Source of the DNA: Pyxidicoccus parkwaysis | GTDB lineage: Bacteria > Myxococcota > Myxococcia > Myxococcales > Myxococcaceae | Direction: 5' to 3' | DNA length: 64,000 bases | Assembly (NCBI RefSeq): GCF_017301735.1 | Contig: NZ_CP071090.1 | Coordinates: 4,082,001 to 4,146,000, forward strand | Shown here: positions 53,811-64,000 of the stretch, in pieces | Layout of the letters: each line of letters begins with the position of its first letter | Numbering within the stretch: the first letter of the stretch is position 1 | Made by a program: the position numbers and the translations under genes | The notes under the pieces: generated by a model | Told to the model about the DNA's origin: nothing | The model's database searches: none | The model's input: only the letters and a program-made list of their open reading frames with translations

Positions 53811-53964
53811 CCAGGTCCTCCGGAGTGCCGGTTCAGTTCCACCCAGGCCTTCGGGCGTGACGCTGCTTGTCGCGGAAAGACCTTAAGGAAACCTTGAGGG
53901 CTTCCCGGCCCCAGGAGGACGACGGTCGGCTATCGTCTCCGGGCCATCAGCCGTGGACGGCGCC

Positions 53965-54852
53965 ATGCGAATGAGAAGGCTCATGTGGGGACTCGGGGTG
54001 GTGTTGCTCGCGGCGGTGGGAGTGCTGGGGCTCAAGGCCTTCCGGACGTACCGCTACCAGGCGGCCGTGCTGCACCCCGCTCCCTCGTCCGCCGTGGTGC
54101 CCGAGGAACTGAAGGACCCGAGGCTGCGCGACGTGACGCTGACGACTCCGCGGGGGCTGGAGATTCGCGGATGGTACATACCGCCCACGCGCGGCTCGGC
54201 CATCGTCTTCCTGCACGGCTCACCGTCCACGCGACTCGACCTCGCGCGCGAGGCGGCGGCGCTGTCACGGCACGGGCATGGCGTGCTGCTCATCGACATG
54301 CCGGGCCACGGTGAGAGCCAGGGGCCGCCCACCTGGGGCGCCGAGCACCGTGCCGCGCTGGAGAGCGCGCTCGACTTCCTCTCACACCAGCCCGACGTGG
54401 ATGCCTCGCGCATCGGCGTCTTCGGCTTCTCCATGGGCTGTGCGGTGGCGGTGCGCGTGGCCGCTGGCGACCAGCGCATCGCGGCCCTTGCGCTGGCTGG
54501 TGCCTATACGCGACTGGAGGACCAGCTCCGCTACGAGTTCCGCTCGTGGGGTCCTGTGACGTACCTGCCGGCCATCGCCGCCAATCGGGACGCGGGGCTA
54601 CCGGTGGACGAGCTTCGCAACGAGGACTACGTGCCCCACCTATCGCCGAGGCCGGTGCTCTACATCGCGGGGACGGCGGACCAGGCTGTGCCGCCGTCCA
54701 TGGCGGAGCGGCTCTACGCGCTCTCCGGCGAGCCGCGGGAGCTGTACCTCGTCCAGGGCGCGGGGCACGGGCACTACGCGGACGCGGGCGGAGACGCGTA
54801 CCTCGCCAAGGTGTGCGCCTTCTTCGACAAGGCGCTGGCACCCCACGCATGA
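53965..54852 (+). CDS. membrane-anchored alpha/beta hydrolase
   Basis: A 295-residue hydrolase. An N-terminal transmembrane helix (LMWGLGVVLLAAVGVLGL) anchors an alpha/beta-hydrolase domain with the HGSPSTRLD oxyanion region, DMPGHGESQG, the nucleophile elbow GFSMG and a C-terminal HGHYADAGGD with the catalytic His. It resembles the BEM46/FrsA-like group. GTG 53953 and later ATGs are also possible starts; ATG 53965 is used because it begins the Arg-flanked helix. It ends three bases before the convergent hydrolase gene. Substrate unknown. Confidence 0.82.
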   Translation: MRMRRLMWGLGVVLLAAVGVLGLKAFRTYRYQAAVLHPAPSSAVVPEELKDPRLRDVTLTTPRGLEIRGWYIPPTRGSAIVFLHGSPSTRLDLAREAAALSRHGHGVLLIDMPGHGESQGPPTWGAEHRAALESALDFLSHQPDVDASRIGVFGFSMGCAVAVRVAAGDQRIAALALAGAYTRLEDQLRYEFRSWGPVTYLPAIAANRDAGLPVDELRNEDYVPHLSPRPVLYIAGTADQAVPPSMAERLYALSGEPRELYLVQGAGHGHYADAGGDAYLAKVCAFFDKALAPHA

Positions 54853-54855
54853 GAC

Positions 54856-56730
54856 TCAGCCGAAGTTCGTGGTGATGAACTCGAGGATGAGGCTGGCCAG
54901 GTAGACCTGGGACCAGAGCGGCGTGAAGGTGTGGTCGGGGCCTTCCACCACCTCCATGCGGAAGTTGGGCTTGTGCGCGAGCCTCCGCCCGCGAGGCCCG
55001 AGGTAGCGCTCGATGACGTCCAGTCCACCGTCGTTGGCGCTGTACACGAGCAGGGACTTCACACCCCGGTCCACGAGGTCGGAGAAGGAGCGACGGACGG
55101 CCAGGTGCTCGCGCTGCTCGGAGCCCTGGAGCGGACCGGGCAGCGGCAACGTCTGGGCGCGCTTCACGGCGCGGGAGAGGAGCTCGCGCGCGATGCGGCG
55201 CACCTGGATTTCCCCTCGCAGTAGGCGGCGCCACGTTTCCTTGCGGAGGACGGCGCCGCGGTAGAAGCGCGTGGACTTGAAGGACGTCTCGTAGGCGGGC
55301 CGCTGCTCGCGCTGCTTGATGACGAGCGAGTCGCCCGTCCGCCAGACGAACGTCTGCGGGTTGATGAGGACCTGACCCGCGACGCGCTCGTCCTGGACGC
55401 TCGCGTGGAATGTGAGGAACGCGCCGGAGCACAGTGAGGCGACCACGTAGCGCCGCATCCCGTAGGCGTTGCCCAGCCAATCCATGGCCTCCTGGATGTC
55501 GCGGACGGAGGCCTTCGAGTACAGCGGGTGCTCACGCCCACCCGGAGCGGGCGGGCTGTCGCCGACGCCAGCGATGTCGAGCCGCATCGCTACATAGCCC
55601 CGGCCCGCCAGCTCGCGAGACAGCGTCACGTGCATCCGGTTGGGACCGGTGCGGTGGTTGGCGCCCACCGAGACGAACAGCACGCCCACCCGGTTCGGGG
55701 AAGGCGGTTCCGAGGAAGGCTCGGCGACGATGCCGAAGAGTCGCCCGTCCTTCCCGAAGCGCACCGCCCGCTCTCGCACCACGGCCCCACCGGGAGCAAC
55801 GCAGGCCAGGACGCTTTCAGATGCACCCGCGGCGGCGGAAGTCGCCTTCGACGCGGGAGCGGAATCCTCGGCGGCATCCGCGTTGCGCAGCCACTCCACC
55901 ATCGTGCCGAGCGCCGCCTCCGGCAGTTCCGTGAACTCCGCATCCCGCATCGCGGCGGAGTAGCCCGGAACCGATGGCACGGAGACCTCCACGCCACAGG
56001 CCGTCAGGTGCTTCGAAATCTGGGCCTCCGCGCCGGGCAGGTCATCCCGCCCGATGAGCAACGCCCGTCGCACCGCGCGCGTCGGAGCATCCAGTGGTCG
56101 AAGACCCGACAGATTCTCCGCCGTGTCAGGACGCAGCAGGTACCCCGCAATCTCCTCGCCCGGCGTGGGGGTCTCGCGCGGAGGACCGACGGAGTCCTTC
56201 TCCTTGAGCTGCCGGAACGCGCGCAGCTCGCGCACGTAGGTACGGCCCGTGGCCGGAGCGGCCCACAGCATCAGGGCCCGCACGTCCTCGCGCTCCGACG
56301 CCGTGGTGAGCGCGAACAGTCCGCCCAGCCTCAAGCCGAAGAGACAGACATTCGAAAATCCCGAGCGCCGCTTCAGCTCGTCGATGGCGGTGCCGATGCT
56401 CGCGCGCCAGGTCGCAACACGGTCCGGCTCGTCGTCGTAGCCACTCGAATCACCGGTGCCGTCGTAGTCGAAGCGAAGGACCGGGAAGCCGGCATCGGCG
56501 AGCCGGGCCGCGAGGTGGCGGTACGTGCGGTGCGCCGGCATTGCCTCGTAGCCGAGCGGGTTGCACAACACGACGCCCAGGTGGCGTGGCGTCATCTCGC
56601 GAGGAGCGTGGTACCAGCCGAAGAGGCGGCGCACCTCGGGACCAAAGGCGATGGCCTGGGGCAGGCTGCTCTCCGTGACACCGGGCTCCGGAACCACGAC
56701 GGAAGCCTGTCGCGCGACGTTGACGCTCAT
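54856..56730 (-). CDS. double alpha/beta-hydrolase protein
   Basis: A 624-residue protein made of two alpha/beta-hydrolase domains (about residues 25-285 and 320-620), similar to the exosortase-associated hydrolase types 1 and 2. Both carry the DYDGTGDSSG / DIAGVGDSPP strand-turn. The nucleophile elbows are not standard: the first reads FGLRLGG with no Ser, the second ASLCSGA with Cys in place. The C-terminal DHTF and earlier Asp could complete a triad in the second. It is the last gene of the seven-gene operon, 14 bases after the GH2 gene. A Cys nucleophile would fit thioester chemistry on the carrier protein; this is inference. Confidence 0.85.
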   Translation of the reverse strand: MSVNVARQASVVVPEPGVTESSLPQAIAFGPEVRRLFGWYHAPREMTPRHLGVVLCNPLGYEAMPAHRTYRHLAARLADAGFPVLRFDYDGTGDSSGYDDEPDRVATWRASIGTAIDELKRRSGFSNVCLFGLRLGGLFALTTASEREDVRALMLWAAPATGRTYVRELRAFRQLKEKDSVGPPRETPTPGEEIAGYLLRPDTAENLSGLRPLDAPTRAVRRALLIGRDDLPGAEAQISKHLTACGVEVSVPSVPGYSAAMRDAEFTELPEAALGTMVEWLRNADAAEDSAPASKATSAAAGASESVLACVAPGGAVVRERAVRFGKDGRLFGIVAEPSSEPPSPNRVGVLFVSVGANHRTGPNRMHVTLSRELAGRGYVAMRLDIAGVGDSPPAPGGREHPLYSKASVRDIQEAMDWLGNAYGMRRYVVASLCSGAFLTFHASVQDERVAGQVLINPQTFVWRTGDSLVIKQREQRPAYETSFKSTRFYRGAVLRKETWRRLLRGEIQVRRIARELLSRAVKRAQTLPLPGPLQGSEQREHLAVRRSFSDLVDRGVKSLLVYSANDGGLDVIERYLGPRGRRLAHKPNFRMEVVEGPDHTFTPLWSQVYLASLILEFITTNFG

Positions 56731-56744
56731 GAATGAAGACCCTC

Positions 56745-59291
56745 TCAGGGGCTGGCCGCCTCGGCGGGGGCCAGCTCGATGCGCACCGGTGTGGCGGCGT
56801 TCAGCGCGTGGACGAAACCACGGAACGCGCGAGCGGATGGACGTGGCCGCAGGACCACTGTTCGCTCATCGCCAGGTGCGAGGTGGAAGTAGTTGTCGTC
56901 CGGCACGTGGCCGGGAGTCTCGAAGGAAACGGCCTGAACGAACCGCTTCGAGCGAAGGCGCACGGTATGGCTGCCATCCGCGCCGGGGAAGGCCACCGCC
57001 TCCAGCCCGACGTCCCCACGCCGCGAAGCCATGGCCGCGTGCGCGAAGTGGAAAGCGCGCTGCAACAGCCGGCCGGAGGCCCGCTCGAACAGCGAGGCCA
57101 CCGCCAGTTCATGCCCCGGAGGGCCGAAGCGGTACGCATACGTCGAGTCCACGAAGTGGCCCGCCATCGCCTCGGCGGAGAGCTTCACTCCGCCGCGAGC
57201 AGGCACGACTGCCTGCGCCCGCCCCTTCGCGACAGGCACCTCACCGTCACGGTAGAAGGCCACCTCCAGCTCCACGTCCAGCGCCGAGCCCGTGTCGTTG
57301 GTGACGTTCACGTCCAGCCCGTCGAGCCCCTCGTCGGACAGCGAGAGCAGGACGTTGGAGGAAGCACACTTCAGGCCGTAGTACGCGGCTTTCGGAAGCC
57401 CCGTCGAATCCACCACGCCCCATCCGGCCCCGGGCCACAGGTCTCGGAAGAACCACACCAGGGCCCCGTGGCACGTGGAGCCGGGACGACGGAACTCAGA
57501 AAGAGTCGCGGCCATCACCTCGCTCGAAGTCACGCGCCCGAGCGCCAGATAGCGAGCCGTGTCCGAGTACCGGAGCCGAGCGGGCTCCACACCGAACAGC
57601 AGGCCCACGTAGTGGTCGCGCACGTCCTCGAAGTCCCAGCCCGCGCCGGGGTCTCTCGGGACGCGAGCCTTCCACTTCGGATGGTGAGCGGGCGCCTCGC
57701 CATCGGCCAGCATGCGCTCGATGGTGGCGTCCTCGGGAACGTTCGCGAAGGCCAGGCACTCGGAGGCGAAGCGAACGCCCGCGCGGCGCGCATCCTCCAT
57801 CGGCCGCAGGTACGCGCCCACGCCGTAGTAGTGCGTGACGCCGGTGCGCGTGTGGAACGGCATCGCGCCGCCGCTCGGAGACGAGCGCCAATACGGCACG
57901 TCCGGACGCAGCGAGGCACCGGCCTCGGGCAGCACCTTCTCGAACAACGGGCCGGTCCACATCGAGGGCGCCATACCCATCATCGCGGCCTGCTGCTCCG
58001 CCTCGCTGTTGCCACACAGCACCGTCAGCGAGGGACACGCCTGCACGCGCGACAGGAACTGCTCCGCCTCGCGCCGCACGTTGGCGGTGAAGGCCGCGTC
58101 CTCGGCGGGGTAGTCCATGTTGGCGAACATGAAGTCCTGCCACACGAGGATGCCCCGGGCGTCGCACGCCTCGTAGAAGCGGTCGTCCTCGTAGACCATC
58201 GTCCCGCCCACGCGGACCATGTTCATGCCCGCCGAGCGCATCAACTCCAGCGCCTCCGCGTAGTCCCGCTCCGTGCCACCGAGCGACACCACATCCAGCG
58301 GGGTCCAGCACGCGCCCCGGCAGAACACCGGCACGCCGTTGATGGACAGCGCGAAGCCTCCCTCCGCCGTAGAGAGCTCCACCGTGCGGAAGCCCACCTG
58401 CCCCGCATCGAGCGAGACGGCAGCACCGCCCTCCAGCGCCACGTCCAGGCGCACGGGATACAGCCGGGGCTCGCCATGCGTGTGCGGCCACCACCGCTCC
58501 ACGGACTCCAGTCGCGCCTCACCGTGCAGACGCCACACGCCCTCGCCCACGGCCTCACACGTCAGGGACGCACTGCCCTCCCCCACGCGCACCGTCGCGG
58601 AGCGCACCGGGCTCCAGGCCCGCACGCGCATGTCCACGGAGACAGCGCCGCCCGCACCCACCACGGAAGAACGCAGGTCCGCGCTCTCCACGGACATCCC
58701 TGCATGATGCTCCACGCTCACGGGCCGCCACGGCCCCACGGGAGGCACCTGCGGACACCACCCGGGGATGTGCCCGAGCAGCGTGGTGCGGAACCAGCGC
58801 AGGTGCGGAGCATCCACCAGCCGCGTCTTCCAGCGAGGCCGCGCCCGCCGCTCCTGCAACGCCGTTGCAAGCGAGCGGAACCGCAGCGCCAGCCTCCGAG
58901 TCCCACCGGCCCACCGCGTGACGTCCACGGAGTGCGCCAGGAACATGTTGTCCGAGCGCAGCACCGGCTCGTCGTCCAGCCACACCTCCGCGAGCGTGGC
59001 CAGCCCATCGAAGCGGAGAAACACCGCGCCGCCCTCGGCGGCGGGCAATGCCACCTCGGTGCGGTACCACCAGTCCCGCGTGTCCAGGGGCGGAGGCCGG
59101 TCGATGTCGAACGGCCCGGCCGCGCGAAGCAGCGAGGCCGCCGTACCGGGAACGGGCGCGGACAACCACGCCAACGCCCGCTCCGAGAGCCGGGAGGGAT
59201 GGTCCACCGCACCGGGCTCCACGGCGACGGCCTGCCAGCCCGTCTCCAGCGGCGTCACCCGGTGCGAGCTGACGTTGCGAATGCGCGCCAT
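56745..59291 (-). CDS. glycoside hydrolase family 2, beta-mannosidase-like
   Basis: An 848-residue GH2 enzyme. A jelly-roll sugar-binding domain (about 1-190; WWYRTEVALP, EVWLDDEPVLRSDNMF) and Ig domain precede the TIM barrel. The acid/base Glu is in CGNSEAEQQ and the nucleophile Glu in RFASECLAF, both present. Beta-mannosidases have this layout. There is no signal peptide, so it is cytoplasmic. The start is ATG 59291; upstream codons have no homology. It lies 19 bases after DUF1839 in the carrier-protein operon, an unexpected place for a glycosidase. Confidence 0.9.
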   Translation of the reverse strand: MARIRNVSSHRVTPLETGWQAVAVEPGAVDHPSRLSERALAWLSAPVPGTAASLLRAAGPFDIDRPPPLDTRDWWYRTEVALPAAEGGAVFLRFDGLATLAEVWLDDEPVLRSDNMFLAHSVDVTRWAGGTRRLALRFRSLATALQERRARPRWKTRLVDAPHLRWFRTTLLGHIPGWCPQVPPVGPWRPVSVEHHAGMSVESADLRSSVVGAGGAVSVDMRVRAWSPVRSATVRVGEGSASLTCEAVGEGVWRLHGEARLESVERWWPHTHGEPRLYPVRLDVALEGGAAVSLDAGQVGFRTVELSTAEGGFALSINGVPVFCRGACWTPLDVVSLGGTERDYAEALELMRSAGMNMVRVGGTMVYEDDRFYEACDARGILVWQDFMFANMDYPAEDAAFTANVRREAEQFLSRVQACPSLTVLCGNSEAEQQAAMMGMAPSMWTGPLFEKVLPEAGASLRPDVPYWRSSPSGGAMPFHTRTGVTHYYGVGAYLRPMEDARRAGVRFASECLAFANVPEDATIERMLADGEAPAHHPKWKARVPRDPGAGWDFEDVRDHYVGLLFGVEPARLRYSDTARYLALGRVTSSEVMAATLSEFRRPGSTCHGALVWFFRDLWPGAGWGVVDSTGLPKAAYYGLKCASSNVLLSLSDEGLDGLDVNVTNDTGSALDVELEVAFYRDGEVPVAKGRAQAVVPARGGVKLSAEAMAGHFVDSTYAYRFGPPGHELAVASLFERASGRLLQRAFHFAHAAMASRRGDVGLEAVAFPGADGSHTVRLRSKRFVQAVSFETPGHVPDDNYFHLAPGDERTVVLRPRPSARAFRGFVHALNAATPVRIELAPAEAASP

Positions 59292-59310
59292 GTCCCCTCC
59301 CCGCTGTCTC

Positions 59311-60291
59311 TCAGCCCGCGACCCGCGTGAGCAGGTCGATGCCACGCTGCCAGCCCGACTCCATGGTCCCCAGCAGCTCGCTGAAGTCCGCCGGCTTCTT
59401 CGCCGCCACCGAGCGCGCGCCCTTGAGGATGAGCGTCTTCGCCGCCGAGGAGATGGACTCGAAGTCCGCCGCCGCGCGAGTCAAATCCCCCTCGGAGCCA
59501 CCAGCGAGCCAGCGCAGGTACGCCGCCGTCAGCTCGAAGTTCGAGCCGAGCTGTCGCAGCGTGGCGAACGCGTAGATGTGATACGCGTCGATGCCCTTCG
59601 CGCGCAGCCCCTCCAGGTCCGAGGCGAACCGCTTCGCGAACCGCGTGCACGGGCTGATGGCCGGACGGCGGCGCAGGTAGCGGGCCAACAGCGCGCGCGA
59701 GCGCTCGCGCAGCACGTCCTCGGAGGGCCGCTCCAGCCGCTCCAGCCCCACCCACTCCGCGAACAGCGGCAGCACGTGCGGCTCCCACGTCCCGGCTGTG
59801 CGGAAGACGCCGTCGAAGTCCTCGCCCTCCAGCGTGTAGTAGCCGGTGTTGTGGAAGTAGCCCAGCTTGCGGCCCTCCACGTCGAGCGTCTCCAGCGCAA
59901 TCGTCGTCTTCGTGTGCTGCCGGCGGTAGTCCGTACCCGCCGTGTCCGGCAGGAAGAACGCGTCGGACTCGGTGAGGATGAGCCGCCCCTCGGACAGGTG
60001 CGCCACGGCGTGCTCGGCCAGGGGGCGGTAGACGTTCAGCTCCTGCACCTCCAGGCCGTAGAGCGTGTTCAGGTCGTCGTGCGACGGCTTGTAGAACGTC
60101 CACTGGTCGCCCACGAAGTCGAGCGCGACGGTGAAGGCCAGCAGCGGCAGCGGGTTGAGCCGCTGCGCGTGCAGCACTTCAATCCACACGTCGGCGTAGC
60201 AGTTCTTCTCCACCCACAGCGCGCTCTCGGCGTGCAGGGTGTGCTTGACGTAGGAGCCTGGGGCGATGCCCAGAACGGAGATGACGCTCAT
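59311..60291 (-). CDS. DUF1839 family protein
   Basis: A 326-residue soluble protein of the DUF1839 type, recognised from its N-terminal block (VLGIAPGSYVKHTLHAESA, then VEKNCYADVWIEVL) and its location. It contains FVGDQWTFYKPSHDDLN, GYYTLEGEDF and LPLFAEWVGLE. No enzyme motif is obvious. DUF1839 genes are commonly found beside the aminoacyl-carrier-protein ligase. Its ATG overlaps the ligase stop codon by four bases, so they are made together and may form a complex. Confidence 0.88.
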   Translation of the reverse strand: MSVISVLGIAPGSYVKHTLHAESALWVEKNCYADVWIEVLHAQRLNPLPLLAFTVALDFVGDQWTFYKPSHDDLNTLYGLEVQELNVYRPLAEHAVAHLSEGRLILTESDAFFLPDTAGTDYRRQHTKTTIALETLDVEGRKLGYFHNTGYYTLEGEDFDGVFRTAGTWEPHVLPLFAEWVGLERLERPSEDVLRERSRALLARYLRRRPAISPCTRFAKRFASDLEGLRAKGIDAYHIYAFATLRQLGSNFELTAAYLRWLAGGSEGDLTRAAADFESISSAAKTLILKGARSVAAKKPADFSELLGTMESGWQRGIDLLTRVAG

Positions 60292-61196
60292 GGCCAGAGC
60301 ACCTTGCGGACCTCGGCCGGCCACTCGGCGGGCACGTAGCCGTGGTGGCGGAACAGGGCCATGGTGACGCGCTCCAGGCCGAAGCCCAGGCACGCGGTGT
60401 GGGCCACCTGCCCGTCCGCCGTCTTGATGTCGAAGAGCAGGCCGAAGTGGTCCTGGTGGTAGTTGAACGAGCACACGGCGGTCTGCTTCGCCGTGGACAG
60501 CACCGGCACCAGCACCTCGAACTTCAGCTTCTGCATGCGCTGGTTCGCGGCCAGCATGCGGCCGCCACGGCCGAAGAACGGATCCGACGCCGTCTCCGGC
60601 TCGGCGGGCAGGCCCAGCCGCCGCAGCAGCGAGAGGCCGCGCTCCAGCCACATGTCACGCCAGTCCGCCACCTGCTCCGGCCTGCCGGCGCGCACCATCT
60701 CCCGGATGCGGAAGGACTGCATGCGCGTGGGCTCGGGCGACGGCTCGTGACGGAACACCCAGTTCTGCACGTCCACCAGCCGCCCGTTCTCCGGCAGCGT
60801 GCCGGTGAGCTGCGGGTAGATGGGGTAGCAGGCCGCGGGCGCGAGCACCACGTCCGTCATCTGCTGGTACTGCCCCCAGGGCTTGCCCTCGTGGACGCAG
60901 TTCATCATCTCCCGGTGCTGGGTGTCGTTGCCCATGAAGCTGAAGATGGTGCCGGCCAGCTGCGGGAAGGACTCCAGGTAGTCGCTCTTCTCGAAGACGC
61001 GCCGGGCGATGACGGGCGGGAAGAGCATGTGCTCCGCGGTGTCGTTCTTCGCGGCCTCGGTGACGAGGTCGCCGAAGCGGCGCAGCACGTCCTCGAACAC
61101 CGGCCCGCGGCCGAACGCGCCGGGCACGCCGACGGGGATGATGAGCTTGTGCGCGACGAGCGCGTCGTGGAAGTCCTGAGCGGAAATGTCAGTCAC
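60288..61196 (-). CDS. amino acid--[acyl-carrier-protein] ligase (SerRS-like)
   Basis: A 302-residue relative of seryl-tRNA synthetases that lacks the tRNA-binding arm. Known members activate a small amino acid with ATP and load it on the phosphopantetheine of a carrier protein. Class II motif 2 is FRHEPSPEPTRMQSFRIRE and motif 3 GFGLERV. Cys123, Glu166 and Cys269 are spaced as the zinc-ligand set of the characterised Bradyrhizobium enzyme (Cys/Glu/Cys). VFEKSDYLESFPQLAGTIFS is also typical. A carrier-protein gene is two genes upstream. The accepted amino acid (often glycine or alanine) cannot be read here. Confidence 0.93.
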   Translation of the reverse strand: MTDISAQDFHDALVAHKLIIPVGVPGAFGRGPVFEDVLRRFGDLVTEAAKNDTAEHMLFPPVIARRVFEKSDYLESFPQLAGTIFSFMGNDTQHREMMNCVHEGKPWGQYQQMTDVVLAPAACYPIYPQLTGTLPENGRLVDVQNWVFRHEPSPEPTRMQSFRIREMVRAGRPEQVADWRDMWLERGLSLLRRLGLPAEPETASDPFFGRGGRMLAANQRMQKLKFEVLVPVLSTAKQTAVCSFNYHQDHFGLLFDIKTADGQVAHTACLGFGLERVTMALFRHHGYVPAEWPAEVRKVLWP

Positions 61197-61277
61197 GGCA
61201 AGGGGCTCCGAAAAGAATGCGAAGAGGTGCCATGCGCCCCGGTGACACGGCGGAGCGCGGGATGGAACACGCGGCTG

Positions 61278-62468
61278 TCAGTCCTCCTTGAGGACCAGCA
61301 GCAGCGACGCGTTGGTGGCGAGGATGCGGTCGTTGCCAATCATCAGCGCCGCGGAGTGCGCGTCGCGCAGGTAGCGGCCGAGCGAGAACGGCGAGTCGTT
61401 CTTGTAGCCCTGGATGCCGCAGATGAGCAGCGCGCGGTGGACGATGTCCGCGACGAGCGTGGAGGCGGACACCTTCAGGTTGTTCATCTTCAGCGAGAAG
61501 CTGATGGAGGACAGCGCCTCCGGGTCGCTCGCGGCCATGCGGCGGCCGGCCTCGGCGGACACCTCGTGCACGCTGGCGCGCATCGTCTGGAGCAGGTTGT
61601 GCACCTCCGCGAGGCGCGACGCGGTGGGCGGCACGGTGCCCGGCTTCGCACGGGCCTGCTGGCGCACGAAGGCACGAGCCCGGGCCACGGCGCCGGCGGC
61701 GATGCCCAACCACACACTGCCCCAGAGGACGTGCGACACCGGCACCATCGTCTGGCTGGCGATGTCCGCGAAGGCCACGGGGAGCACGTGCTCGGAAGGG
61801 CCGGTGGAGCGGACCTTGAAGCCCGGGCTGCACGTGCCGCGCATGCCCATCGTGTCCCAGTTGCTCGTGCGCTCCAGGGTGAAGCTCCCCTTGCGCAGCA
61901 GCACCAGCGACTGGTCATTGCGAGGCGCGTCCGGCGCGCGGCGCGCAGTGGCCAGCAGGTCATCCGCGTGCTCGCCGTAGGAGATGGTGGTCGCGTCCTT
62001 GTCCAACGAGAAGCGCCCGTCGCGCTGCTCCACGGCGGTGACGCTGGCGCGCATCTCGCCGCCCACGCCCACCTCGGAGGTGACGGAGGCGATGAGGAGC
62101 TGCTTCTCGTTCAGCTCCGTGAGGTAGGCGCGCAGCATGGGAGACGCCATGCCATGCCGCGCCAGGCACGCCACTTGGATGTGGTGCATGGCGAAGACCA
62201 TGGCGGTGGACGCGCAGTGGTGGGCCAGCGCCTCGCACATGGAGGCCACCTGGTCCAACGGGACTTCCGGCCCCCCAAGCGAGGCGGGGACGAGCAGACC
62301 GAGCATCCGCGCGCGCTTCAGCGCTTCCATCGCTTCCACGGGGAAGCGGCCCTCGCGGTCCACGGAGTCCGCATGGACGCGGGCCACCTCCGAGGCAATG
62401 CGTGTGACGGTCTCCAGCGGGCTGGCGGCCGGGGTGGAGACATCGCCCTGAGGCGCGGCGGTGGTCAT
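61278..62468 (-). CDS. acyl-CoA dehydrogenase-like flavoprotein
   Basis: A 396-residue flavoprotein of the acyl-CoA dehydrogenase fold. Signs include VPASLGGPEVPLDQVASMCE near residue 60, the flavin-binding SVTSEVGVGG, WDTMGMRGTCSPGF and GRYLRDAHSA near the end. Where the usual catalytic Glu sits (YEGT-type), this protein reads MIGNDRI, so the standard base is missing. It may act on the aminoacyl thioester of the neighbouring carrier protein rather than on acyl-CoA. It lies four bases after the carrier gene and 81 bases before the ligase gene. Confidence 0.9.
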   Translation of the reverse strand: MTTAAPQGDVSTPAASPLETVTRIASEVARVHADSVDREGRFPVEAMEALKRARMLGLLVPASLGGPEVPLDQVASMCEALAHHCASTAMVFAMHHIQVACLARHGMASPMLRAYLTELNEKQLLIASVTSEVGVGGEMRASVTAVEQRDGRFSLDKDATTISYGEHADDLLATARRAPDAPRNDQSLVLLRKGSFTLERTSNWDTMGMRGTCSPGFKVRSTGPSEHVLPVAFADIASQTMVPVSHVLWGSVWLGIAAGAVARARAFVRQQARAKPGTVPPTASRLAEVHNLLQTMRASVHEVSAEAGRRMAASDPEALSSISFSLKMNNLKVSASTLVADIVHRALLICGIQGYKNDSPFSLGRYLRDAHSAALMIGNDRILATNASLLLVLKED

Positions 62469-62472
62469 GGCT

Positions 62473-62715
62473 TCACTTCCCCGCCGTGAGCTCTTCCACC
62501 GCCTCGCGGATGGACGAGACGCTCTGGAAGACGGTGCGCTTCAGCATGCGGTCGGGGAACTCCACGTCGAAGCTCGCCTCCAGCGCGAGCATGACATTCA
62601 CGCTCGCGTGGGACGTCATGCCAGCCTGATAGAGGTCCGCCGTGTCCGACAGGGTGGTGATGTCCGTGGACAGACGCGCGTGCTCTTTGAGGATGTTGCG
62701 GATGGATTCAATCAT
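62473..62715 (-). CDS. stand-alone carrier protein of the aminoacyl-CP type
   Basis: An 80-residue acyl-carrier-protein homologue. The phosphopantetheine site is Ser35 in LYQAGMTSHAS rather than the usual DSL of fatty-acid ACPs. Helices VNVMLALEASFDVEFPD and VSSIREAVEEL follow, as in the carrier proteins paired with SerRS-like ligases. Its ATG overlaps the AcpS stop codon by four bases. It is expected to hold the activated amino acid as a thioester. ATG 62715 is the natural start; the longer frame upstream is not homologous. Confidence 0.92.
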   Translation of the reverse strand: MIESIRNILKEHARLSTDITTLSDTADLYQAGMTSHASVNVMLALEASFDVEFPDRMLKRTVFQSVSSIREAVEELTAGK

Positions 62716-63119
62716 GGGCGTACGTGGGGTTGAGTCTGTTGGGCGATAACGACCGCGGAGGCGTACTCCGCCTCGTGGGTCAAACTGACGGAGAAACCAA
62801 AGAGGCCCCGAGCGTCGGCGACGCTCCGGGCCTCGGCGTGAAGGGCCAGCTCGCAGAAGCCCTCCGGCGAGCGCACCACCTCGATGGAGCGCCACGGCAC
62901 GGGGACCTCGTGGACGCGCAGCACCTTGATGGTGGCTTCCTTCGCCGCGAAGCGCGCCGCGAGCCGCTCCGGTGCGGCATGCGCGTCCTTCAGGCAGTAG
63001 GCCAGCTCACCGGGGGTGAACAGCCGCTCCAGATAACGCTGGCCGAAGCGCTGGACGGAAGCCGCCACCGCGGAGACCTGAACCAGGTCCGTCCCGACCA
63101 CGATTGAGCTTGCTGCCAT
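62712..63119 (-). CDS. acpS: holo-[acyl-carrier-protein] synthase (AcpS-type)
   Basis: A 135-residue 4'-phosphopantetheinyl transferase that adds the prosthetic arm from CoA to a carrier Ser. The motifs GTDLVQVSAV, FAAKEATIKVL and SVSLTHEAEYASA are all present. It is the first gene of the operon and overlaps the carrier gene (ATGA), so it is likely dedicated to this carrier, although the cell may also use it for others. No clear ribosome-binding site precedes ATG 63119; a hairpin lies in the leader. Confidence 0.93.
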   Translation of the reverse strand: MAASSIVVGTDLVQVSAVAASVQRFGQRYLERLFTPGELAYCLKDAHAAPERLAARFAAKEATIKVLRVHEVPVPWRSIEVVRSPEGFCELALHAEARSVADARGLFGFSVSLTHEAEYASAVVIAQQTQPHVRP

Positions 63120-63318: not shown

Positions 63319-63918
63319 CTACTCTCCGGGTGCCAGCTCCCGCAGCAGGTCGCCCAGCTTCTCCAGCGCCAGCCGCGCCCGCGTCTTCACGGTGCCGAGC
63401 GGGTCGCCCGTGCGCTCCGCGATTTCGCGCTGCGAGAGCCCCTCGAAGTAGGCCAACTCCACCACCTCGCGCTGCTCGCGTGGCAACTGCTTCAGCGCGG
63501 CCAGCACCCGCTGGCGGTTCTGCCCCTGCGCGCTGGCCTCGTCCGGTGCGGGCGGCTCGGCGCTCACCGGAGGCGGCTCGTGGGTGGCGCCCTCCACCAC
63601 GCGCGCCGCGGTGCCCATGCTGCGCAGCCGGTCGATGGCGCGCGTGCGGGCGATGGTGGCCACCCACGTCTCCAGCCCGCCGCGCGCCGGGTCGAACTCG
63701 CGCGCGCGGCGCCACACGTCGAGGAAGGTCTCCTGCAGCACCTCCTCCGCGTCGGCGCGGGACGGCAAGAGCCGCAGCGTGACGGCGAAGGCCTTCGAGC
63801 CACAGCGCGCGTACACCTCGCGCATCGCCGCGGCGCTGCCGAGAGCCACCTGCTGGAGGAGGGCTCTGTCAGCCGCCGGGTCGCTCGCTCGGGGGACGGA
63901 GGGTGGAGGAGGCGCCAT
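63319..63918 (-). CDS. ECF-type RNA polymerase sigma factor
   Basis: A 199-residue ECF sigma factor. Region 2 is SRADAEEVLQETFLDVWRRA and region 4 is LPREQREVVELAYFEGLSQRE with GTVKTRARLALEKL. ATG 63918 is used; a TTG at 63963 would add 15 residues, and neither has a good ribosome-binding site. No anti-sigma gene follows; the 199 bases to the carrier operon hold none. It may transcribe the downstream operon in the same direction, which is untested. Confidence 0.9.
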   Translation of the reverse strand: MAPPPPSVPRASDPAADRALLQQVALGSAAAMREVYARCGSKAFAVTLRLLPSRADAEEVLQETFLDVWRRAREFDPARGGLETWVATIARTRAIDRLRSMGTAARVVEGATHEPPPVSAEPPAPDEASAQGQNRQRVLAALKQLPREQREVVELAYFEGLSQREIAERTGDPLGTVKTRARLALEKLGDLLRELAPGE

Positions 63919-64000
63919 GCAAGTCCCGGATACCGCAACCGACGGGGCAGATCCCAGCTTCAAGTAACACGGTAGGCGGCTCGCAATCCCGTTCCTAACG

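Follow-up and report, generated by a model that had tools for sequence, protein, structure and literature searches.

The biochemistry of amino acid:[carrier protein] ligases was worked out in 2010-2013. What the aminoacyl-carriers they form are used for remained unknown according to a review of 2022 (PMC9437257), and the question bears on a locus of Pyxidicoccus parkwaysis. In the stretch analysed here (the window: 64,000 nucleotides, positions 4,082,001 to 4,146,000 of contig NZ_CP071090.1, part of a 13.2-Mb single-contig genome) an operon at 54856-63119 on the minus strand places a SerRS-like ligase and a carrier protein among an AcpS-type transferase, a flavoprotein with the acyl-CoA dehydrogenase (ACAD) fold, a DUF1839 protein, a GH2 enzyme and a fused double hydrolase. 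An initial annotation, made from the letters alone, had described seven genes in one direction with overlaps or gaps of at most 81 bases, and all seven open reading frames (ORFs) were found again, with junctions, in transcription order, of -4, +4, +81, -4, +19 and +14 bases. We propose, with middling confidence, that the operon encodes a dedicated aminoacyl-carrier-protein pathway in which an oxidised small amino acid is made and attached to a cell-surface glycan precursor.

In such a pathway AcpS would place phosphopantetheine on the carrier, and the ligase would adenylate a small amino acid with ATP, most likely glycine and possibly alanine, and load it as a thioester. The flavoprotein, devoid of the dehydrogenation base, would then use reduced flavin and O2 to oxygenate the tethered amino acid, most likely at the amino nitrogen, after which DUF1839, the half of the hydrolase that bears a Cys triad, or both would hand the carrier-bound acyl group on to an acceptor sugar or set it free, with a cytoplasmic GH2 building or trimming that acceptor. 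The conserved operon reduces the question of the aminoacyl-carrier's role to a few enzymes in a fixed order, each step having a predicted chemistry.

Ligase, carrier and conserved gene order

The ligase (60288..61196, minus strand, GTG start, 302 aa) scores 429.9 bits against the equivalog cut-off of 357 of NF005479, the model for amino acid--[acyl-carrier-protein] ligases, and its similarity to type-2 SerRS is confined to the catalytic part at the C-terminus, i.e., it is a truncated class II core devoid of the tRNA-binding domain. The Bll0957 structures 3mey and 4h2w match it end-to-end over the catalytic core (E 3e-74). C123, E151 and C269, invariant among 26 homologs, correspond to the Cys/Glu/Cys of the catalytic zinc site, whose role in zinc binding is known from the Bll0957 structures. 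The carrier gene (62473..62715, minus strand) belongs to the same operon, and its product has a PP-binding domain (PF00550) and is the sole protein of the genome above the cut-off of NF005480, the partner model of the ligase family (110 bits, cut-off 72); Ser35 in the motif GMTSHAS, the site of phosphopantetheine attachment, is invariant in 28 homologs. The first gene (62712..63119, minus strand) encodes an AcpS-type 4'-phosphopantetheinyl transferase (PF01648, 2.4e-14; TIGR00516, 67.5 bits, cut-off 59.8). Judged by sequence, the enzyme is a genuine member of the amino acid:[carrier protein] ligases, and the cognate carrier together with the score above the equivalog cut-off backs the earlier proposal that an amino acid is tethered here.

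The contiguous order carrier, ACAD, ligase, DUF1839 and GH2 was found in all 15 Pseudomonadota DUF1839 loci, randomly drawn out of 398 genomes, as well as in the intact myxobacterial loci, and because of this synteny a chance run of genes is excluded. It occurs also on plasmids of Azospirillum, Rhizobium, Shinella, Phyllobacterium, Mycetohabitans, Caballeronia, Burkholderia and Methylobacterium. GH2 accompanies DUF1839 in every locus with intact flanks, and wherever such a locus also holds the ligase, the ACAD gene lies between carrier and ligase. The initial annotation had named as refuting that the genes be conserved together in no relative, and against this the five core genes do stay together. 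AcpS lies outside the wide core: within this operon type six Myxococcaceae genomes alone, a subgroup of that family, have it, and it is absent from the proteobacterial operons. Outside this operon type, AcpS, a phosphopantetheinyl transferase (PPTase), stands in the ligase loci of Priestia and Tsukamurella. Among named species, Pyxidicoccus caerfyrddinensis and Citreicoccus inhibens carry the operons closest to this one.

Its distribution is sparse, with DUF1839 in 11 of 195 Myxococcota genomes, 15 of 398 Pseudomonadota genomes and 3 of 369 genomes of the class to which the gammaproteobacterial metagenome-assembled genome L004 belongs; within the window's own genus the ligase is patchy (3/27 listed genomes), and viral contigs scanned for further relatives gave none. 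Locus L064 (9539-16605) holds carrier, ACAD, DUF1839, GH2 and hydrolase, with no ligase between ACAD and DUF1839. Two operons in rhizobia are decayed and lie near nif genes, namely that of Rhizobium acidisoli FH23 (L042, 10864-13377), with GH2 in four pieces, and that of R. johnstonii 3841 pRL10 (L052, 11714-13146), where carrier and ACAD alone were found.

The flavoprotein step

Acyl-CoA_dh domains are assigned by Pfam to the flavoprotein (61278..62468, minus strand), nonetheless it lacks the catalytic glutamate of these enzymes. When 46 relatives are aligned, I, V or Y stands where the medium-chain acyl-CoA dehydrogenase (MCAD) type has its catalytic Glu, and S, A, T or C where the isovaleryl-CoA dehydrogenase (IVD) type has it, in 46/46 cases each, while the reference ACADs of the same alignment have Glu at one or other of the two positions. 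H246, W249 and W253 are invariant among the 46, and on NCBIfam ACAD models the operon enzymes reach at most ~108 bits, against 268 for a canonical ACAD of a related myxobacterium that is encoded beside a different ligase. Since the catalytic Glu is absent from both known positions, the protein is probably not a dehydrogenase, as far as its residues tell, and for the same reason we consider oxygenation, most likely on nitrogen, the likelier step and the best reading of it. The comparison supports oxidation on the carrier, proposed by the initial annotation, with dehydrogenation the less likely form of it. A comparable case has been described in chalkophomycin biosynthesis, where the ACAD-like ChmG, with Met in place of Glu, N-oxygenates carrier-bound proline (PMC10849742), and an ACAD-like enzyme has been proposed for N-hydroxylation in L-alanosine biosynthesis (PMC11705231, PMC7347517). 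A flavin reductase gene is present in the cluster of two more distant Streptomyces relatives of the flavoprotein, and a formyltransferase gene in that of one Agrobacterium relative. In this Agrobacterium case, on a plasmid of Agrobacterium salinitolerans (L047, 2864-13885), the flavoprotein relative is accompanied by an AMP-binding protein, a carrier, the formyltransferase, a condensation domain and a MATE exporter, possibly an N-formyl-N-hydroxy amino acid cluster.

Several points limit the case for N-oxygenation. The operon itself holds no flavin reductase gene, the profile scores of the flavoprotein against the N-oxygenase structures DnmZ and KijD3 were no better than against dehydrogenases, and an AlphaFold model built from a three-sequence alignment reached a predicted local distance difference test (pLDDT) value of 34. 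Moreover, other bases serve in some real ACAD-fold dehydrogenases, so the loss of Glu is not proof of oxygenation. H95 and S163 were considered as monooxygenase signatures and dropped, since canonical ACADs have H95 and comparable residues.

The flavoprotein could instead act as an oxidase or dehydrogenase, removing two or four electrons to give an imine, a dehydroamino acid or an alpha-keto/glyoxylyl thioester that is then transferred. This fits the ACAD-fold domains and the dehydrogenase structures, which score as high as the N-oxygenase structures in profile comparisons, and RedW, AnaB and Bmp3 are known ACAD-family oxidases of carrier-bound amino acids (discussed in PMC10849742). Prolyl oxidases nonetheless retain the Glu that is missing from both known catalytic positions in all 46 relatives, the low NCBIfam scores set the operon enzymes apart from the canonical ACAD, and alpha,beta-dehydrogenation is impossible on glycine, which has no beta carbon; we regard this chemistry as rather improbable.

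Downstream enzymes and the acceptor

Three enzymes encoded downstream of the ligase would act on the acyl group or on its acceptor. The DUF1839 protein (59311..60291, minus strand; PF08893, 357.6 bits, cut-off 22.5, 8e-107), proposed here as the aminoacyl transferase, belongs to a family reported to have a papain-like fold and a C(T/S)H triad, for which a 2023 survey in the Journal of Biological Chemistry suggested a glycan-related role (PMC10318531). C33, T119 and H149 (numbered from a start at 60297) are invariant in 25/25 sequences and are candidates for this triad; a PDB profile search with DUF1839 returned chance matches only. The GH2 protein (56745..59291, minus strand) is beta-mannosidase-like, its best match among beta-mannosidase structures being 5n6u (E 9e-59). 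Its catalytic Glu pair is kept: E430 (23/24) and E511 (24/24) fall within the acid/base and nucleophile regions when aligned with beta-mannosidases; at L064 the acid/base Glu is replaced by Asp. No transmembrane-like segment was found in the GH2 of the window, to which the GH2 proteins of the operon group are ~44-50% identical, as compared to at most 29% for the next relatives on plasmids, at comparable coverage.

The double alpha/beta hydrolase (54856..56730, minus strand) consists of a TIGR03101-like half followed by a TIGR03100-like half, both below the curated cut-offs (133.1 bits against 168.45 and 95.9 against 202.75). Domain 1 is missing the usual nucleophile, while in domain 2 a Cys434-Asp567-His600 triad is invariant in 19/19 sequences, a Tsukamurella homolog included. 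At L025 and L086 the double hydrolase is fused to a Wzx-type (Polysacc_synt_3) flippase, and L088 has the same long-ORF architecture. Both halves are present in 16/16 listed genomes of one Myxococcaceae genus, and in related myxobacteria separate, adjacent hydrolase-2 and hydrolase-1 genes lie behind nonribosomal peptide synthetase (NRPS) genes (L152, 8244-16342), so that a role on carrier-bound acyl groups fits.

Besides the flippase fusions, the neighbourhoods of the operon in relatives support transfer towards a glycan, which the initial annotation had suggested from the GH2 gene. When the 15 Pseudomonadota loci, each in a 20-kb window, were scanned with polysaccharide-gene queries that came from unrelated loci, 9 gave a match, against 4 of 40 control windows from these genomes (Fisher p = 3e-4; with all queries used, controls 5/40, p = 8e-4). 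The sample is small, windows that share a genome depend in part on each other, and the queries were picked after related loci had been seen. Near the operon are found Bac_transf, ManC, Wzc and hydrolase genes at L085, GT2, Wzx and hydrolase genes at L087, and Wzy_C, GT4 and export protein genes at L091; in the myxobacterial L061, Bac_transf lies just upstream. An exopolysaccharide cluster of Tsukamurella contains the ligase, a carrier, a PPTase and the hydrolase homolog. At L085 (7401-13494) a second, divergent DUF1839 gene lies past GH2 and adjoins ManC in one polysaccharide cluster. In the whole 64-kb window polysaccharide-gene queries gave no match, and the acceptor would accordingly have to be made elsewhere in this organism.

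This last result, together with a plasmid locus of Priestia aryabhattai (L041, 7148-15707), weighs against a glycan destination. There AcpS, carrier, ACAD and ligase stand beside a transporter, an ATP-grasp protein, a hydrolase, an alanine permease and an alanine racemase, with Ddl, a cysteine desulfurase and comX close by and no DUF1839 or GH2, in what looks like a cluster for an alanine analogue with self-resistance genes. With no glycan genes around it, the four-gene module can also serve a small-molecule pathway. The product in the window might likewise be soluble (an amino-acid antimetabolite, a piece of a metallophore or a glycoside), with polysaccharide genes as mere neighbours in some lineages. 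Consistent with this are also the clusters of Streptomyces and Agrobacterium in which a flavoprotein relative is encoded together with adenylation or AMP-binding, carrier and condensation functions, and the separate hydrolase genes that follow NRPS genes. The Priestia, Streptomyces and Agrobacterium clusters, however, are devoid of DUF1839 and GH2, whereas GH2 is present at every DUF1839 locus with intact flanks, polysaccharide genes are found at the 9 of 15 loci and a polysaccharide flippase is fused to the hydrolase; a soluble product is, in our view, a minority possibility. Since Priestia has the four genes apart from DUF1839 and GH2, these seem to form a transferable unit making an oxidised amino acid, and what is specific to surface-glycan use would be the other three genes, those for DUF1839, GH2 and the hydrolase.

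Less probable still, and by a wide distance from the preferred pathway, is that glycine or alanine reaches the glycan unoxidised, in a manner resembling D-alanylation, with the flavoprotein working on another substrate. The Tsukamurella cluster, where ligase, carrier, PPTase and hydrolase homolog stand with glycosyltransferases and no ACAD, and L004, where ligase and carrier are present and no ACAD was found in the available locus DNA, point in this direction; the ACAD gene, nevertheless, keeps its place between carrier and ligase in all ligase-bearing DUF1839 loci whose flanks are intact, and the same ACAD recurs in the Priestia module. Ordinary fatty-acid metabolism is excluded, because the ligase is an aminoacyl-tRNA synthetase homolog and the ACAD lacks its base.

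Returning to the proposed attachment of an oxidised amino acid to a glycan precursor, its most specific form would be a new decoration of surface polymers, where N-hydroxy or otherwise N-oxidised glycine or alanine passes from the carrier to an exopolysaccharide precursor via DUF1839 and the Cys-triad hydrolase. We put this forward tentatively, as a doubtful version of the general proposal; if true, it would be the first biological role for this family of aminoacyl-carrier ligases. A literature search combining N-hydroxyglycine, polysaccharide and carrier protein returned no such case.

Two genes flank the operon. A further alpha/beta hydrolase (53953..54852, plus strand), convergent with it and with a hydrophobic N-terminus by inspection, is retained adjoining the operon in L002, L003, L059 and L060, and a weaker homolog lies immediately upstream of the carrier gene in L061; it may be an accessory, eighth member. 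On the other side, ~200 bases upstream and on the same strand, an extracytoplasmic function (ECF) sigma factor is encoded at 63319-63963 (minus strand), in a position that just two relatives retain, the closest ones (L002 and L060).

Comparison with known systems

The Bradyrhizobium amino acid:[carrier protein] ligase 1, Bll0957, shares with the ligase of the window the whole catalytic core and the zinc-site residues, while the myxobacterial operon differs in carrying its own AcpS. In B. diazoefficiens the ligase gene bll0957 adjoins the ACAD gene bll0958, and both are up-regulated in a phaR mutant at low oxygen (PMC10888616). ChmG resembles the flavoprotein in being ACAD-like, devoid of the catalytic Glu and a genomic neighbour of a carrier and of an enzyme that activates an amino acid; by description, which is the basis of this comparison, it differs in that its activating enzyme is an adenylase, its substrate is proline and it has a companion dehydrogenase, ChmH. 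The operon may add another example of N-oxygenation taking place on a carrier protein. BtrH, the acyl-carrier-protein:aminoglycoside acyltransferase of butirosin biosynthesis, is reported to have a papain-like fold, as is DUF1839 (both PMC10318531), and transfers a carrier-bound aminoacyl group to a sugar, as proposed here for DUF1839, which nevertheless makes up a Pfam family of its own and has a C(T/S)H triad; this comparison too was made by description. The halves of the double hydrolase match the exosortase A system-associated hydrolases (TIGR03100, TIGR03101) in the order 2 then 1, with the difference that they are fused in one protein and score under the cut-offs.

The pathway itself had been foreseen. 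A note in proof of 2010 (Biol Direct 5:48; PMC2922099) predicted from gene neighbourhoods that the ligase system couples an amino acid to a sugar of the cell surface, with the conserved ORF Atu2574 as the transferase and a redox enzyme that probably monooxygenates the aminoacyl group. The initial annotation, which knew of no described product, was right in that none was found in the literature, while the pathway idea is already contained in that note, so that its inference is a correct rediscovery. What is already known is therefore the predicted pathway, monooxygenation and sugar attachment included, and our literature search found no experimental test of it. From gene order, Atu2574 would be the DUF1839 gene; neither this identity nor a role for the hydrolase is spelled out in the note's text as consulted. 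Going by locus numbers only, Atu2574 appears to be adjacent to an uncharacterised Agrobacterium glycan cluster, with members Atu2577 to Atu2592, that is required for phenazine tolerance (PMC9790009), and Agrobacterium is a possible genetic system for the pathway. As far as the 2010 note describes the StRS-like/Atu2574 system, the two share ligase, carrier, redox enzyme, conserved ORF and glycosidase, all clustered in the window, and the proposed fate of a monooxygenated amino acid on a cell-surface sugar. The linked liposaccharide or polysaccharide genes, none matched in the window, are found in relatives at the frequencies given above (9/15 vs 4/40), and AcpS and the double hydrolase are additional members of the operon. 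To the 2010 system the present comparison adds the tests of residue conservation, figures for synteny and for the enrichment of neighbouring genes, the hydrolase-flippase fusion, the triad with Cys and the four-gene module of Priestia.

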